Positions 11,641 through 48,085 of a DNA stretch of 64,000 nt are shown in pieces. This stretch comes from Candidatus Cloacimonadota bacterium (lineage in GTDB: Bacteria > Cloacimonadota > Cloacimonadia > Cloacimonadales > Cloacimonadaceae). The stretch is taken from positions 124,001 to 188,000 of the forward strand of contig JAJBAV010000001.1 in the NCBI GenBank assembly GCA_020532085.1, read 5' to 3'. The position numbers and the translations under genes are program-made. The first letter of the stretch is position 1. Every line of letters starts with the position of its first letter. The notes under the pieces are model-generated. The model saw nothing but the letters and a program-made list of their open reading frames with translations, ran no database searches and was not told where the DNA came from.

Positions 11641-14133
11641 ATGAACAAGACAATCCTGACCCTCGCGGCCCTGCTATCCGTCCTGTGCCTGTTCGCGGGC
11701 GCTCCGGAAGTGACCGCCGTGACCGCCTCCCAGCAGGAAAACCTGGTGGTGATCGACTACTACCTCGCCCATCCCGACGAATTGTTGTGTAACGTCTCGG
11801 TGGAAATATCGGACGACGGTGGCCTCAGCTACGGCATCGTTCCCAGCCCTGGTTCCCTGAGCGGGGATATCGGCATCCTCGAAGCCACCGTACAGGGCGC
11901 TCCCCGCCAGATCGTCTGGGATTACAGCCAGGACGGCATCCCCTCTGGCACCAACTACCGTGCCAAGGTGGTCGCCGACGATAACATCCCCGTCATCGTA
12001 TCTCCCCTCACCCATGTCCTCACAGCCGCCGATCTGCCCTTCATAGTGCATATGGACGAGATGAACCTGGTGCTTCTCAACTCAGCCCCGGCTCAATACT
12101 ACACCCCCGGCAACATCCTTGTAATGGCTCCCTGCCCCCAGATCCCCTCCGGCCTGATACGCAAGGTCGTCAGCTTCTATTTCTCGGGCAACCTGGTTTA
12201 CCTCGAAACGGTAACTGCCACGCTGGAAGAGGCCTTCGATCAGGTCCAGCTGAGCTTCAGCGGGGACCTGAAAGCCTCGGACATGGTTTCCTTCGGCCCC
12301 TTGGTGGACGGAGTCACTTATGTTCCGGATGGCAAGGACCTCAGCCATACATTCGACCTGAGTTTCGAGATGACCACGGATGAAGGGGTCAAACTCGCTG
12401 TCACCGGGGAAGTTAAAATTACCCTGGGCTACGACATGAGCATCACCGTGAGCGGACCCTTTTGGGACACGAAACTGAGTTACCTGAAAGCCGGTGGACA
12501 TGGATCTGTGAATGCCACCATTGGACTGGAGATCGGCGGTGAACTCTCGGTGGACAAAAAGGTCGAACTCGGCGTGATAAATTTCGCGCCCATAACCGTC
12601 TGGGCGGGTCCCGTGCCAATCGTTTTGCTCCCCTCCGTGACTTTGGCCCTGGAGCTTGAAGCCGGCGTGGGAGCCTCTGTCACAACCTCGGTGACCGATA
12701 TCGTAACTTTTTCCGCCGGGATCAAATACGATGAGGACGCTTCGGCCCAATGGTCACCCTATGGAGACGCCGCCAATAGCTTCAGCTTCAATCCGCCTTC
12801 GCTCTCCACGAGTTTGAACGCCTCCGTCGCCGCGGGGCCGCAACTGGAGCTCAAGCTCTACGGCATTGCCGGTCCGTTTATATATACCCCCCTCTACGTT
12901 GAACTGGAAGCCGATGTCTTTGCCACTCCCTGGTGGACCTTGAAGGCCGGCTTCAAAGCCGATGCCGGGGTGGAGGTTGAAGTGTTGGGCGTCGGATTGG
13001 AATGGGGAGTCACCGTTTTCGACTACCCCATTACTCTGGCCTCGGCCACCACCGACCAGGTCGCCCAGCCTTCTTTCAGCCCGGGCGGAGCAAACTATGC
13101 CGCCGCCCAGAACGTTACCATCTCCTGCTCCACCGACGGCGCTTCCATCCGCTACACCACCGACGGCAGCGATCCCAGCACCGCCTCAACCCTCTACTTC
13201 GGGCCGGTGAACATCAACTCCGACACCACCCTGAAGGCCAGGGCGTTCAAGAGCCCCTGGAAGCCCAGTGACACAGCCTCGGCCACTTACACGATTTCAA
13301 CCCCGGCGGTGGCGACCCCGGCGGTCAGCCCCGCTGCCGGAGACTACCTGACATCCGTGGTTGTCTCCATCTCCTGCGCCACCGACGCCGCCAACATCCA
13401 CTACACCACCGACGGCACCACTCCCACCACTTCCTCACTCCAGTATGTGAACCCCTTCACTCTCACAGAGTCCGCCACCGTCAACGCCAGAGGCTTCAAG
13501 GACGGATACAATGCCAGCCTCACCGCCTCCGCCGCATACGCGATCATCGACGTGGAGGAGTATGGGTCCGGAAAGGACGCCAGCATCCACGCGGCCATGC
13601 CAAACACCAACGACGGCACCGGAGAGCGCCTCACTGTGAGGAACGGGGTGGGAAATCCGCTCTATCCGCCCCCGGCCGGGTCCTGGCAGATCGACACCCT
13701 CATCTGGTTCAGCCTGGCTTCGGTCCCCGCTGGCTCCACCATCGATTCCGCCACCCTGATGCTATACTACTGCGATAACAAGGACAACAACCCGGCAGGC
13801 CGGACGCTGTCGCTTTTCAGCGCCAACCTGCCCTGGAACGAAAACACGCTCACCTGGAACAACCAGCCCACCTATCCCGTGGCCACCTCAGTCTCCAGCT
13901 CCGTGCCCGCCTCCTGCCCTTCCTGGATGGCCTGGGACGTAACAGCCGACGTCCAGGATTTTGTGGCTGGAACAACCCTCAACTATGGCTGGAAGATCAC
14001 CGACATCACGCCCTGGAACGACTACAACATCCCCATCACCTATTTCCGTTCCCGGGACTACGTCAATACAACGGAACGTCCCTACCTCGAGGTGCAACTG
14101 GCCGGAAAGGCGGAGCCGCTGATCTTCAAGTGA
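11641..14133 (+). CDS. large secreted protein with two chitobiase-type domains and a DNRLRE domain
   Basis: An 830-residue exported protein (signal peptide 1-20, ending LFAGA). Residues about 20-120 look like an Ig/FN3-type domain with VSVEISDDGGLSY. Residues about 130-470 form an unrecognised beta-rich region rich in alternating hydrophobic residues. Two tandem domains (about 475-550 and 555-635) have the pattern PxFSPGGANYxAAQNVTISC followed by IRYTTDGSDPS, as in chitobiase/beta-hexosaminidase C-terminal domains. The last 190 residues (DASIHAAMPNTNDGTGERL...LTWNNQP) are a DNRLRE-type domain. No catalytic domain is recognised. Carbohydrate or surface binding is plausible. Confidence 0.88.
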   Translation: MNKTILTLAALLSVLCLFAGAPEVTAVTASQQENLVVIDYYLAHPDELLCNVSVEISDDGGLSYGIVPSPGSLSGDIGILEATVQGAPRQIVWDYSQDGIPSGTNYRAKVVADDNIPVIVSPLTHVLTAADLPFIVHMDEMNLVLLNSAPAQYYTPGNILVMAPCPQIPSGLIRKVVSFYFSGNLVYLETVTATLEEAFDQVQLSFSGDLKASDMVSFGPLVDGVTYVPDGKDLSHTFDLSFEMTTDEGVKLAVTGEVKITLGYDMSITVSGPFWDTKLSYLKAGGHGSVNATIGLEIGGELSVDKKVELGVINFAPITVWAGPVPIVLLPSVTLALELEAGVGASVTTSVTDIVTFSAGIKYDEDASAQWSPYGDAANSFSFNPPSLSTSLNASVAAGPQLELKLYGIAGPFIYTPLYVELEADVFATPWWTLKAGFKADAGVEVEVLGVGLEWGVTVFDYPITLASATTDQVAQPSFSPGGANYAAAQNVTISCSTDGASIRYTTDGSDPSTASTLYFGPVNINSDTTLKARAFKSPWKPSDTASATYTISTPAVATPAVSPAAGDYLTSVVVSISCATDAANIHYTTDGTTPTTSSLQYVNPFTLTESATVNARGFKDGYNASLTASAAYAIIDVEEYGSGKDASIHAAMPNTNDGTGERLTVRNGVGNPLYPPPAGSWQIDTLIWFSLASVPAGSTIDSATLMLYYCDNKDNNPAGRTLSLFSANLPWNENTLTWNNQPTYPVATSVSSSVPASCPSWMAWDVTADVQDFVAGTTLNYGWKITDITPWNDYNIPITYFRSRDYVNTTERPYLEVQLAGKAEPLIFK

Positions 14134-14197: not shown

Positions 14198-14533
14198 CCA
14201 AGGAGTCGTTCCTGAGGCCATCGATCCGGCTGTTTGGAAGCCACCCGCCTGATCCCCGCACCAGAGGCGGGAATCTCCCGGGAGGCAGGCTGGAGGGGCA
14301 GTAGAATCAATAAGGGATGAGCCTCGGAAAGCGCTGAAAGTGTGGATAAGGTGAAAATCCCTGCGATCCGGTTGATCGCAGGTAAACAAAGGCTCTCTTT
14401 CAAATCAAGTAACTGAGGCAACCCGTTATGAACCATGCCATCTTATCTTGGGTTGCCAAATCCCTGCGCTGACTCTGCACAGCGGCAGAAACTTAACCTG
14501 GACACACAACCCCGCCTTGCGCGGGGTGCAGGG
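14198..14533. other. start of repeat island, no gene
   Basis: There is no supported reading frame. The stretch holds GC-rich non-coding sequence leading into the inverted repeats that fill the next 2 kb. CTCTTTCAAATC at 14394-14405 resembles the TTTGAAAGAGAG found at 47136-47147 in the second repeat island. Confidence 0.5.
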
Positions 14534-14796
14534 CTATAGGCGGGGTGTTTCAACCCCCTTAAAAGCACTCGGGCAAATCCCTGAAAAACCCCTCGCCAGA
14601 GGGGAGCATGACTTCGGTTCGTGATTTATCGCGGATCAGAGGTGCGTTGCTAAATCCCAGATCATTATGGCGAAGCGATTAATCGCTCCGCAAATTCCTT
14701 CACCCTGCAGGATTTTATCCTTTTGCCTGGTCATCCCTGCCACGGGGGTTGAAACACCCCGCCTATAGTGCTTCACCCCTCTGGCGAGGGGTTTTT
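14534..14796. repeat. two interleaved perfect inverted repeats (A-B-A'-B')
   Basis: Arm A (14534-14558, CTATAGGCGGGGTGTTTCAA plus CCCCC) is the exact reverse complement of 14744-14768. Arm B (14584-14604, AAAAACCCCTCGCCAGAGGG plus G) is the exact reverse complement of 14776-14796. The order A, B, A', B' is not nested. B is itself a hairpin (CCCCTC/GAGGGG). In the second copy A' and B' are 7 nt apart, while in the first A and B are 25 nt apart. No coding sequence is seen between them. Confidence 0.85.
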
Positions 14797-15130
14797 CCGG
14801 CCATTACCCACTCGGTTTGAAAAAGAGCCAAAGAAAAAAACAAGCTTTGGATTGCTACTTGCGTAAAAAACGCGGATCGCCACACCCAGAGGGGCTTTGG
14901 ACTTCAGACAGCGAGGGTTGATCCGCAGCCAACAAAACCAGACCCTGTTTGAAGCCCAAGCCGGCCAAGCGATTGCGTTTGTTTCAACTCTATACAGCCG
15001 GCTAGGACTCCATAGCTTACAATGCATACGTCATCCCGGACTTGATCCGGGATCCAGCCCCGCAGCCGGAGTGGGGATAGCTTGGTTTCTGGAATGAATC
15101 GCCGCAGGGTGTGGCAGTTTTAATAGTTCT

Positions 15131-15413
15131 AATAATTCACAAGTTCCCCTTATACGGGGGAAACCGATTTTAATGATTCTCCAAATTCACTGATTCTCTC
15201 TTTACGGCCCCGCCGGAGGGGGCATTTGCCGGTAATGACAGCACATGGACGGAAGACCATATATTACATATATATACCTATATAACTACTAATACCTACT
15301 ATATTACTATATATTATATCTATATAGTATATCTATCAGTATCTTATATATCCTGGACCTGGTTCTGGACCGGGGTTTATAAAAAGGGGCCGTATAGGGT
15401 GAATTGGTGAATT
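15131..15413. repeat. arm/AT-core/arm element, unit 1
   Basis: The left arm begins AATAATTCACAAGTTCCCC and runs to TACGG. It is followed by a GC-rich stretch, an AT-only core whose 53-nt heart (15267-15319) recurs in units 2 and 3, a CCTGGACCTGGTTCTGGACC segment, and an opposite-strand arm GGGGCCGTATAGGGTGAATT. The left arm is more diverged than in the other units. Confidence 0.75.
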
Positions 15414-15441
15414 TGGGGAATCATTAAAATTGAATGATTCG

Positions 15442-15676
15442 AATAATTCACAAGTTCCCTTTATACGGCCCCGCCGGAGAGGGGTTCTGGGAAAAATGGC
15501 ACAACCAGGACTTAAACTCCTATATACCATATATATACCTATATAACTACTAATACCTACTATATTACTATATATTATATATAAGTATATATATAACAGA
15601 AACTTGGACCCTCTTCACCCCGGTCTTGGATGAGACAAGCCAAAAGCGGCTATATAAGGGGAATTTGTGAATTATT
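15442..15676. repeat. arm/AT-core/arm element, unit 2
   Basis: 235 bp. Left arm AATAATTCACAAGTTCCCTT..TACGGCC and right arm GCGGCTATATAAGGGGAATT..GAATTATT form an imperfect inverted repeat. The AT core heart is at 15528-15580, identical to unit 1 over 53 nt. A GGTCTTGGATGAGACAAGCC segment separates core and right arm. The 93 nt at 15387-15479, which join the right arm of unit 1 to the left arm of unit 2, are repeated exactly at 15733-15825. Confidence 0.8.
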
Positions 15677-15787
15677 CGGATCATTCAAACCAGCCCTGGT
15701 CGATTGGGTTTAGAGGAAGCTTGGAACGGGGAGGGCCGTATAGGGTGAATTGGTGAATTTGGGGAATCATTAAAATTGAATGATTCG

Positions 15788-16023
15788 AATAATTCACAAG
15801 TTCCCTTTATACGGCCCCGCCGGAGGTGAGAATTGTCCAAATAGACAACACCTGGATGTATAGTCATATATAGCATATATATACCTATATAACTATTAAT
15901 ACCTACTATATTAGTATATATTATATCTATATAGTATATATATCAGTATATTACATACCCTTCTCCTGGTCCTGGATGAGTCAAGCCAAAAAGCGGCCGT
16001 ATAGTGGGAATTTGTGAATTATT
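15788..16023. repeat. arm/AT-core/arm element, unit 3
   Basis: 236 bp, nearly the same length and layout as unit 2: left arm, AT core (heart 15874-15926, two differences from the other copies), GGTCCTGGATGAGTCAAGCC, then right arm GCGGCCGTATAGTGGGAATT..GAATTATT. An extra right-arm copy (from 15733) precedes it. No reading frame of interest crosses the unit. Confidence 0.8.
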
Positions 16024-16210
16024 CGAATTACTCATTTTCATTTTTGCACCTAAACCAAATCCTCCGAATTGACAACCGCTGTTTTTTCAACGGCGTCATC
16101 CCGGAGTCCATTACGTCATCCCGGACTTGATCCGGGATCCAGAAAAAGAACTGGATGCCAGCCCTCCCACCCGGCGAACTCGCTGCGCTCGCTCACGAGG
16201 ACCCCGGCGT

Positions 16211-16400: not shown

Positions 16401-16631
16401 GCAAATTTGAGGCAGGGTGGGGGTGTTTAAATACGTGAAGCCGTCCAATCGGTAATCCGCATTAAAAGTGAATGCCTGGAAGCGTGAATGGAGCCGCAAA
16501 CGTCCCCGTTTGCGAAGCCTCGGAGCAGCTTGTCTTTGGGTTCTGAAAGACCTTCCGGATCTTGGCAGACGGGGACGTCTGCCACTCCTGTTTAGCCCGG
16601 AATGACAGCATCAAACCCAAGCCGGGGATGC

Positions 16632-16683: not shown

Positions 16684-18474
16684 TCAGTGGGCTTCGTGCT
16701 TATGGGTTACCTGTTCGAGCACCTGGCCGCTGTTGACGGAGCGTTTGAAGTAGTAGGTGTGGAGCAGCTTGAGGGCGAGGGGGGAGTTGGGTTCGCCGAG
16801 GAAGCGCTCGTAAACCTTGAGAACTTCAGGATTCCGGTGGGACTGGCGCACGGGCAGATTGCGGTCTTCCTCGTAGAGGGAGAGGCCTCTGCGGGCGCGG
16901 GAAGCGATATCGTTGCCGTAGGGCTGTCCGCCGCCGCCGACGCAACCGCCGGGGCAGGCCATGATCTCGATGAAGTGCCAGGGCGATTCGCCTTTGGTGG
17001 CCAGGCCTTCGCGCACCTGGTCCATCACCTTGCGGGCGTTGGAAAGCCCGTGGGCGACGGCCACGCGAACCTCGCCGAAGCCGGGAACGTCGATCGCGGC
17101 TTCCTTCACGCCTTCCAGACCGCGGACACCGGTGATCTCGACGTTGGCGAGGTCGGTTTTGGTGACCAGGTAGTAGGCGGAGCGGATCGCTGCTTCCATC
17201 ACGCCGCCGGTGGCGCCAAAGATGGTGCCGGCCCCGGAATAGAAGCTCATGCCCTCATCCGGTTCCTCTTCCGGCAGATTGGCGAAATCGATGCCCGCTT
17301 CCTTGATCATGCGGATCAGTTCGCGGGTGGTGAGCACATAGTCCGTGTCCTGGAAGCCGGAATCACGCAGTTCGGGGCGCCGGGCCTCGAATTTCTTCGC
17401 GGTGCAGGGCATCACGGCCACGGAGACGATCTTGGCGGGATCGATGTTGTGTTCCTGGGCGTAGTAGGTCTTGGACAGCACGCCGAACATGCTCATGGGG
17501 GATTTGGCGGTGGAAACGCAGTCCGCGAGGTCGGGATAGTAAGTTTCCATGAATTTGATCCAGCCCGGGGAGCAGGAGGTGATCAGGGGGCGCTTTTCGC
17601 CGGCAACCAGCTTGGCCACGCATTCGGTGCCTTCCTCCATGATGGTGAGGTCGGCGGTGAAGTTTGTGTCCATCACGCTGTCGAAGCCGATCTTGCGCAG
17701 GGCGGCATACATTTTCTTGGGGGTCACGGAGCCGAGCGGCAGGCCGAAATCCTCACCCAGGGAAACGCGGACGGAGGGAGCTTCCTGCACGATCACGTGT
17801 TTGTCGGGGTCGAGGATGGCTTCCCAGACCTCGTCGATCTCGCCGCGTTCGCGCAGAGCGCCGGTGGGGCAGTAAACCGTGCATTGGCCGCAGTTCACGC
17901 AGGGGCTGTTGGCCATGCCGAGCCCGAAGGCGGTGTCGATGTGGGCATCGATGCCGCGGTCGGAGAAGGTGAGGGCGTAAACGGTCTGAACTTCGTTGCA
18001 AACGTTGATGCAGCGTCCGCAGGCGATGCATTTGTTCACGTCGCGGATGATGGACAGGGAGCTGGTGTCGACAGGTTGTTTCACCAGGATGCTGGGCAGG
18101 GCTTCGGGGTCCACGCCGAGGTTATTCGCCAGGGTTTGGAGCTCGCATTTGTTGTTGGCCACGCAGGTGGGGCAAACCACGTCGTGGTTGGAAAGGATCA
18201 TCTCCACCAGGGTTTTGCGGTAGGAACGCAGTTTCCTGGTGTTGGTAACGATCTTCATCCCTTCGGCCACGGGGGTGCAGCAAGCGCGTTTGGGGGCCGG
18301 ATTTCCGGTGATCTCCACCACGCAGACGCCGCAGTTGGCCGTGGGCGGCAGATCGGGATGGTAACACAGGCTGGGGATATAGATCCCGTGCTGGCGAGCG
18401 GCTTCGATGATGGTCATCGTATCCGGAACTTCCAGATGTTGGTCATCGATCCAGATATTTACTGTTTTAGCCAT
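16684..18474 (-). CDS. [FeFe] hydrogenase catalytic subunit of an NAD-linked complex (HydA/HndD type)
   Basis: A 596-residue cytoplasmic H2-evolving subunit. Domains in order: [2Fe-2S] plant-type (Cys 37, 48, 51, 65), His-Cys cluster (His 97, Cys 101, 104, 110), two [4Fe-4S] clusters (CIACGRCINVC near 149, CVNCGQCTVYC near 192), and the H-cluster domain with TSCSPGW (299-305), MPCTAKKFE (Cys 357) and EIMACPGGCVGGGGQP (Cys 507, 511), then the small-subunit-type C-terminus. TSCSPGW differs from textbook TSCCPxW at the second Cys. The neighbouring NuoE/NuoF-like genes mark it as part of a multimeric, probably electron-bifurcating enzyme that oxidises NADH and reduced ferredoxin together. Last gene of the operon. 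Confidence 0.95.
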   Translation of the reverse strand: MAKTVNIWIDDQHLEVPDTMTIIEAARQHGIYIPSLCYHPDLPPTANCGVCVVEITGNPAPKRACCTPVAEGMKIVTNTRKLRSYRKTLVEMILSNHDVVCPTCVANNKCELQTLANNLGVDPEALPSILVKQPVDTSSLSIIRDVNKCIACGRCINVCNEVQTVYALTFSDRGIDAHIDTAFGLGMANSPCVNCGQCTVYCPTGALRERGEIDEVWEAILDPDKHVIVQEAPSVRVSLGEDFGLPLGSVTPKKMYAALRKIGFDSVMDTNFTADLTIMEEGTECVAKLVAGEKRPLITSCSPGWIKFMETYYPDLADCVSTAKSPMSMFGVLSKTYYAQEHNIDPAKIVSVAVMPCTAKKFEARRPELRDSGFQDTDYVLTTRELIRMIKEAGIDFANLPEEEPDEGMSFYSGAGTIFGATGGVMEAAIRSAYYLVTKTDLANVEITGVRGLEGVKEAAIDVPGFGEVRVAVAHGLSNARKVMDQVREGLATKGESPWHFIEIMACPGGCVGGGGQPYGNDIASRARRGLSLYEEDRNLPVRQSHRNPEVLKVYERFLGEPNSPLALKLLHTYYFKRSVNSGQVLEQVTHKHEAH

Positions 18475-31316: not shown

Positions 31317-31385
31317 GTCTTGGCTTCCTTCTCCACTTAACACAGCTAGTTTTGCCAAGATTTGCCAGCCTGTGTGGAAACCCAG

Positions 31386-31480
31386 TTGGCTCCCAATATC
31401 AATACGGTATCAATACGGAATCATTACGGATGAAATCCGTATTGATTCCGTATTGATACCGTATTGATATTGGGAGCCAA
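31386..31480. repeat. near-perfect 95-nt hairpin between convergent genes
   Basis: Arms 31386-31431 and 31435-31480 (46 nt each) are reverse complements with a single mismatch and a GAA loop. Each arm contains repeats of ATCAATACGG. It sits 69 nt after the PEGA gene stop and about 105 nt from the end of the convergent CCA-type gene, and could act as a two-way terminator. There is no T-tract. Confidence 0.9.
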
Positions 31481-31584
31481 CTTGGTGACGGACAGTAATG
31501 GATTTGCCAATGTATTGATTTTATGTAAGATGGATATCAGCTGCTGAATATTGATCTGCAATATACATTTAACTTATATGTTTA

Positions 31585-47032: not shown

Positions 47033-47172
47033 GTAGCGGTGGAGTATTCGGGTGAGAACATCCGGAATGACGCAACGGTGATGTATTCAGGTGAGAACGC
47101 CCGAAATGCAGCTTAGGCTGTCCTCACTCGATTTGAAAGAGAGCTGGATTTTGGGTTTGGAAACACTGGGCG

Positions 47173-47612
47173 GTTCCTATTCTGGATCCTATCAGAACCC
47201 TTTAGCAGAGCGGTTTTAGGGTATATAAAGCACAAAAAAAGCCTTCTCCTCCCTCCCCGGCGGAAGGGCTGACAAGGTAGAGTGTATATAGCCGCTAATG
47301 CTATATCTTATTAATCTATATATAGTTATATTATATATTTATTATATTATTATATATTTTACTATTACTATATAGATACAAGCTCAGCATCCTCACTTTT
47401 CACTTCCTCCAGCGTGTCCTGGATCCTGGCCATGAGTCCAGGTCCTGGATCAGGTTCCAGGGTCTGGGGTAGGTTCCAAGATCTGGGGTCAGGGTAGAAA
47501 AAACCTCTGTTTTCAGCCTTCCGGCGGCGGGGGAGGAGAGGCCGATTTCTGTGCTTTATATACCCTAAACCCTCTCTGCTAAAGGGTTCTGATAGGATTC
47601 AAGATAGGAACC
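47173..47612. repeat. 440-bp arm/AT-core/arm element in the second repeat island
   Basis: Arms of 63 nt (47173-47235 and 47550-47612) are inverted copies with a few mismatches, and pairing continues inward through a CCTCCC/GGGAGG-rich stretch. Between them lie an AT-only core (about 47285-47388) and a segment with repeated CCTGG/CCAGG words (CAGGTCCTGGATCAGG). The order matches the units at 15.1-16.0 kb although the arm sequences differ. No protein-coding signal is seen. Confidence 0.8.
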
Positions 47613-47656
47613 GGCAAAATGCTATCAAAAATCAAATTGAGATGGCATCCCCTCTC

Positions 47657-47781: not shown

Positions 47782-47814
47782 GAAACCCAAGCCCCCGCGG
47801 GAAAAGACGGAAGG

Positions 47815-48044
47815 CGGTGGCTTCAGCCACCGTTCCCGGGCCTCAGCGGCGAGGGAGAGACGATCTCCGGCGGTTTCAACCGCCGGCTGACGCCATCCTC
47901 CTGTATCCAGTGAAAAGGCCGTAAACGCGACCTCCGGAGGCCGTAGAGGGCGAATCACCGGGTGTATTGCCGGTGCTTGAAAGCACCGGACATCGTCTAT
48001 TTGGGGGTCGGTCCCCGGGCGGTGTACGGTGGCTGAAGCCACCG
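47815..48044. repeat. series of palindromes with TTCA/TGAA centre
   Basis: Four hairpins in 230 nt: CGGTGGCTTCAGCCACCG (47815-47832), CCGGCGGTTTCAACCGCCGG (47867-47886), CCGGTGCTTGAAAGCACCGG (47970-47989) and CGGTGGCTGAAGCCACCG (48027-48044). The centre is constant while the stem bases change in pairs. A fifth lies at 48854-48869 (CGCGGCTGAAGCCGCG), and the A arms at 14.5-14.8 kb have a similar centre. Confidence 0.8.
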
Positions 48045-48085
48045 CCTTCCGTCTGCTGTCCTCCGGACAAACGGGTCCAAGCCTT

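Follow-up and report, generated by a model that had tools for sequence, protein, structure and literature searches.

The question raised by this locus is what three tandem, mirror-armed repeat units represent in the gap between two convergent genes. The window, a stretch of 64,000 nucleotides, is carried by contig C1 of a 2.81-Mb, 98-contig MAG (G000). One of the two flanking genes, at 11641-14133, is taken from its open reading frame alone to encode an 830-aa secreted-type protein, and the other, at 16684-18474, is presumably, on the same basis, an NADH-dependent hydrogenase-type gene. The array between them probably consists of three orphan replication origins of a PICI-like mobile primase-helicase replicon, inserted between two genes that are direct neighbours in two relatives; both the origin activity and the mobility of the elements are what we infer from sequence. 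Among the three readings offered in the preliminary description, a DNA-binding array fits best, in the form of a mobile replicon origin, because related elements occupy the 3' side of primase-helicase genes and carry arms whose sequence follows that of the helicase's winged helix, while the reading as an RNA structure is disfavoured.

The three arm/core/arm units reported earlier are present in tandem, and each contains, from left to right, a 41-47-nt arm, a GC-richer spacer, a core of ~87 nt, a CCTGG-rich box, and a right arm. All parts of the array are given here on the + strand. Unit 1 (15166-15431) comprises a type B left arm (15166-15212), an A+T-rich core (15260-15346; core profile E 7.8e-21, model R1 E 4e-31), a CCTGG-rich segment in the interval between core and right arm (15349-15375), and a right arm B' (15386-15431) that pairs with the left arm as an inverted repeat of 45 nt with 87% complementarity. 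Unit 2 (15430-15690) comprises a type A left arm (15430-15472), an A+T-rich core recognised by both the core profile and model R1 (15521-15606), and a right arm A' (15648-15690) that pairs with the left arm over 41 nt at 88%. Unit 3 (15776-16038) carries a type A left arm (15776-15818) and a right arm A' (15995-16038), which form an inverted repeat around a core (15867-15954) found by the same profile and model. Outside unit 1 stands a solo outer arm of type A (15117-15157), which has the orientation and nearly the same sequence as the left arms of units 2 and 3, also occurs in G010, and has no partner in the right arm of unit 1.

From the outer end of one arm to that of the other, the units span 261-266 bp and not the 235 and 236 bp first proposed. 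The 53-nt cores, starting at 15268, 15529, and 15875, are nearly identical as described, with 1-3 differing positions among the units, but they are not AT-only, since 9 C occur in 53 nt and the A+T content is ~85% across 60 nt. The 93-nt duplication is exact, as had been noted: 15387-15479, which contains B' and a type A left arm, equals 15733-15825, which contains a second B' followed by the left arm of unit 3, and the identity ends at 93 nt. Pairing of the arms across the core, also anticipated, extends far beyond chance, as indicated by the folding z-scores of unit 3 (-9.7 and -8.2 on the two strands) together with the covariation of the arms across copies.

A search for further copies, suggested at the outset, shows that the element is not confined to a single locus. 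Profile searches identify at least 11 core copies in the window genome and core copies in 8 of the 13 genomes of the genus. Beyond the genus, weak matches alone occur, in three other genomes of the family, and all records returned by the core search of other genomes belong to Candidatus Cloacimonadota. The aligned core has a mean column identity of 76%, and the CCTGGnCCTGG box is conserved in most copies. The arm sequence is private to each copy or small group of copies and is mirrored inside the copy. Across 14 elements, 94% of the cells are paired and both sides have changed in 27 of 44 pairs, a level reached by 0 of 500 shuffles and abolished when partners are shifted by one column. An insertion of a single base in one arm likewise has its counterpart in the partner arm. 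The arm score is 0.86 within an element versus 0.23 between elements, and 24 of 25 left arms find their best match in their own right arm; L139, for which the chosen inverted repeat is not the true arm, is left out of the later arm tests.

Several core copies are located just 3' of an 800-900-aa primase-helicase gene or its remnants. These type I proteins are fusions of BT4734-like_N, PriCT_2, and DUF3987 domains, all over the Pfam cut-off, and other genes of the genus are of a split type II, in which an AEP gene precedes a DUF3987 gene of ~445 aa; the type II genes are followed by elements of like architecture with a different A+T core. With their Pfam domains and a predicted C-terminal winged helix, these replicons belong to the AEP, PriCT, and DUF3987 group of primase-helicase replicons known from integrated elements. 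An element, defined as a pair of inverted arms that enclose a core with an A+T content of 80% or more and lie no more than 1 kb downstream, follows 25 of the 31 distinct helicase 3' ends for which the sequence is long enough, versus 1 of 206 background ORF ends from unselected stretches of C1 and C2, and the lone background positive is a second orphan element of the window itself. Cores near helicase genes reach 82-95% A+T over 60 nt. Among the remaining helicase genes, those of L131, L142, and L114 show no obvious downstream element, those of L109 and L124 are followed by an A+T-rich stretch alone, and the gene of L148 has a partly present element past 1 kb from the helicase end. The core lies on the gene strand in C27, C18, C22, C13, G006 C54, and G012 C163, and on the opposite strand in C39, G006 C8 and C7, and G002 C78 and C18. 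The arrangement extends to a second genus, where the single-contig genome L154 has a helicase gene followed by an A+T-rich stretch with AAATTCACA-type repeats, and in L153, from that genus as well, three TAAATTCGCA repeats spaced at ~21 bp precede an A+T-rich stretch.

The DUF3987 helicase is predicted to combine an MCM-like AAA+ fold with a C-terminal winged helix. In the AlphaFold2 model (mfe7d232b5ee3; pLDDT 87), the AAA+ part matches MCM with Z ~18 and 3.6 A over ~270 residues, and the C terminus, residues 387-435 (pLDDT 81-88), follows the order E-H-H-E-wing-E, a winged helix by secondary structure whose variable portion is its strands and wing. The arms, for their part, hold short tandem repeats of 8-11 nt, with a 7-12-nt periodicity that is significant in 13 of 24 arms (Fisher combined p = 8e-15). 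Arm similarity correlates with similarity in the last 40 helicase residues (partial r = 0.60, p = 0.0002), versus 0.15 for the helicase body, and the correlation is significant within type I (0.44) and within type II (0.49), in Mantel sets that are small (24, 11, and 13) and with values partly inflated because wing and arms are adjacent and co-inherited. By region, the correlation with the last 40 residues is 0.58 for the distal arm, 0.28 for the stop-adjacent spacer, and 0.08 for the outer flank. Mere neighbourhood is disfavoured, since it would make the spacer the best correlated region and the far arm the worst, and the opposite is observed. The genes on C36, C10, and C20 share mostly 90-100% identity as far as approximately codon 400, beyond which wing, arms, and core are unrelated, so that wing and origin move as one cassette; C36 and C5 are mostly 90-100% alike over their full length, wing and origin included.

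The long, near-perfect mirror arms exceed the usual iteron sets in length and symmetry and could instead form a hairpin. The arms would then function as single-stranded DNA, serving as a priming site for the primase in the manner of the ssi sites of IncQ plasmids, and not as duplex iterons. This explanation gains from the near-perfect complementarity that is kept despite sequence change, paired insertion included, and from the primase that the replicon itself encodes, but we consider it unlikely, as tandem repeats in the arms are needless in a hairpin, the arm sequence tracks the helicase wing, and the A+T-rich core, which lacks a conserved fold of its own, makes an odd loop.

If the elements are origins of a primase-helicase replicon, as preferred here, the replicon would encode an AEP primase (BT4734-like_N and PriCT_2) and a DUF3987 helicase, fused in type I or as two genes in type II. 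The C-terminal winged helix of the helicase would bind the arms, with iterons mirrored on both sides, and the mirrored arms would load two helicase assemblies face to face. The facing helicases would melt the A+T-rich core, and the primase would then start synthesis. With an arm sequence particular to each replicon and a wing to match, coexisting replicons would not cross-fire their origins. The natural swaps of wing and origin provide a ready data set for the helicase-origin recognition code and also inform how coexisting replicons avoid cross-firing.

Several known systems share parts of this design. The alpha protein of phage P4 unites a primase, a helicase, and a C-terminal origin-binding domain and is served by an iteron-bearing origin; the likeness extends to P4 alpha with ori1/crr in all of these parts, but P4 has two separate sites and its protein families are unrelated. 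The origin of a PICI lies immediately 3' of the initiator gene, and in it an A+T-rich region has a set of iterons on either side (PMC6092414). As in the pri-rep-ori order of SaPIs and PICIs, the origin described here would lie directly 3' of the initiator gene (25 of 31 helicase ends), iteron sets occur on both sides of an A+T-rich region, primase and helicase are fused or adjacent, and arm sequences are replicon-specific. Unlike SaPIs and PICIs, the present replicons have a DUF3987 helicase, belong to another phylum, carry arms that are long and nearly perfect mirror images, adjoin no recognised phage-satellite genes (integrase, packaging), and occur as numerous origins that lack a rep gene, some of them arrayed in tandem. 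By anatomy the elements resemble the PICI origin type, and membership in the PICIs is not established; they are not filed as PICIs, which would call for an integrase, an attachment site, and induction and packaging by a helper phage. For the replicons, neither an integrase nor a tRNA attachment site or exact border is found, and helicase relatives are absent from IMG/VR and from phage and plasmid collections.

On the protein side, the likeness is to the PolpTN2-like and PrimQH primases of integrated elements, which combine AEP, PriCT, a helicase (DUF3987 included), and a C-terminal winged helix (PMC5862659). In that work, DUF3987 is a predicted helicase, and the reading of the origin is assigned, as a proposal, to the winged helix at the C terminus of an AEP protein; it deals with the proteins, whereas the present analysis adds the origin and its correspondence to the wing. 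A DUF3987 primase is also carried by a family of phage satellites (PMC10803314). Iteron plasmids likewise combine iterons with an A+T-rich unwinding element (PMC4980987), and their iterons are usually one-sided direct repeats, in contrast to the mirror-image sets on both sides here. What this locus adds is the origin layout in combination with a DUF3987 helicase that is MCM-like by model, in an uncultured phylum, with many copies per genome and each copy with its own arms. The finding also accounts for one class of intergenic repeat in these genomes, that with an A+T-rich sequence and mirrored arms.

The history of the locus bears on the remaining explanations. The concern that assembly had collapsed or duplicated the repeats does not hold for units 1 and 2 at least, because the independent MAG L030 has both at the orthologous place, where the adjoining gene ends in ...QTARVMVL. 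In G002 and G012, the ...QTARVMVL gene and the hydrogenase gene are neighbours separated by a short gap with no array. The array is therefore present in two species and absent from the matching place in two others, and as G002 and G012 are without it, it was gained or expanded in the lineage of G000 and G010; alternatively, it may have been lost in G002 and G012. The ...QTARVMVL neighbour gene has since disappeared from G000. Between G000 and G010, both arms of unit 2 have changed alike, so that the symmetry persists without a nearby gene, through either palindrome gene conversion or selection.

This presence and absence at one locus also suits transposon ends of the MITE or fold-back kind, in which a transposase would bind the arms as terminal inverted repeats and the copies in the window would count as non-autonomous. 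Such an explanation would cover the dispersal of the copies, some of them gene-free, and the coincidence of the outer arm with the limit of homology between two gene-bearing copies, and like REPIN/BIME and MITE families the elements are short, dispersed, intergenic inverted repeats. It is nevertheless very unlikely. The centre is conserved and the arms vary, the reverse of fold-back families with their conserved terminal repeats; both arms lie on one side of the gene and do not enclose it; and the link is to a primase-helicase and not to a transposase. The array-free sites in G002 and G012 answer the earlier call for an empty-site check in part, with no target duplication seen and intergenic DNA too diverged to define a junction. 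What stands of the proposed non-autonomous mobile element is that the window copy has no helicase gene, while transposase-type ends are not found. Y1 transposase genes exist, with seven matches in the genome, but a single one lies near a copy, ~350 bp from that on C22, and none near the others; a link to REP/RAYT systems was tried and rejected. A structured non-coding RNA, a long hairpin derived from the 3'-terminal part of the helicase transcript, would explain the strong arm covariation and the low folding energy on both strands, but it is highly improbable given the mixed orientation of the core relative to the gene, the lack of a consensus core structure in RNAalifold, and the lack of an Rfam match at the array. 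Over the window region, Rfam yields a sub-threshold Chlorobi-1 match outside the array, at 14738-14797 (19.2 bits, cut-off 50).

The orphan status of the window elements, taken as replicon origins, follows from their surroundings. A protein search finds no helicase gene or remnant in the flanks of the array; tblastn matches at 16478-16600 were considered as helicase remnants and rejected, being repeats that are inserted inside the helicase query. The second orphan element (47171-47613, no strand assigned) has 97-nt arms, a 249-nt gap, and a 95% A+T core, and sits in a 722-bp segment that is 99.4% identical to DNA downstream of the C59 helicase gene. The window orphans may be relics, or they may depend on a helicase in trans that fires them or is titrated by them. 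A bolder and rather unlikely proposal is that gene-free tandem origins are origin-only parasites or decoys, whose mirrored arms are retained so that the origins can be fired or can titrate the helicase. If so, orphan origins would act during the activity of a replicon whose wing matches them and would be satellites of a satellite-like replicon.

Further observations concern the primase-helicase genes and their neighbours. The intact primase-helicase gene on C27 (L091 5501-8212) contains in-frame repeat insertions at approximately residues 216-266 and 360-458, which match intergenic repeats such as window 16478-16600. In several genera, a family of ~149-aa proteins (L144 4922-5371; L180 17080-18000) is often encoded next to primase-helicase genes of types I and II, and it also stands alone in many copies per genome. 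For the protein at L144:4922-5371, there is no match in Pfam, NCBIfam, or PADLOC, none in PHROGs at E <0.3, and no convincing fold match; this companion was dropped from the explanation because it has no family match and occurs widely where the A+T core is missing. Two replicons have as neighbours ZorA/ZorB-like genes and a type IIG restriction-modification gene (L131 3752-5922; L144 8655-11762). In G021 (L180-L181, second genus), the replicon module directly adjoins genes that are type III CRISPR-Cas-like as judged from open reading frames alone, and among the open reading frames read beside this module no integrase is recognised and no tRNA occurs.

Other repeats share the window with the array. 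Two identical, REP-like 31-bp direct repeats, GTCATCCCGGACTTGATCCGGGATCCAG, at 15027-15057 and 16112-16142, bracket the array on both sides, and REPs resembling GTCATCCCGGACTTGATCCGGGATCCAG lie beside core copies on C50, C18, and C39. Nested long inverted repeats, GGGGTGCAGGGCTATAGGCGGGGTGTTTCAACCCCC and CCTGAAAAACCCCTCGCCAGAGGGG, with gaps of 170-185 nt, occupy 14523-14809, and C1:8900-9169 belongs to the same family. At 31380-31486 lies a 52-bp near-perfect palindrome that has a 3-nt centre and is assembled from 11-nt repeats (TATCAATACGG). The region 47805-48054 represents a GC-rich inverted-repeat family, AGACGGAAGGCGGTGGCTTCAGCCACCGT, with a gap of usually 130-190 nt and many copies on C1, C2, C19, C39, and C59.
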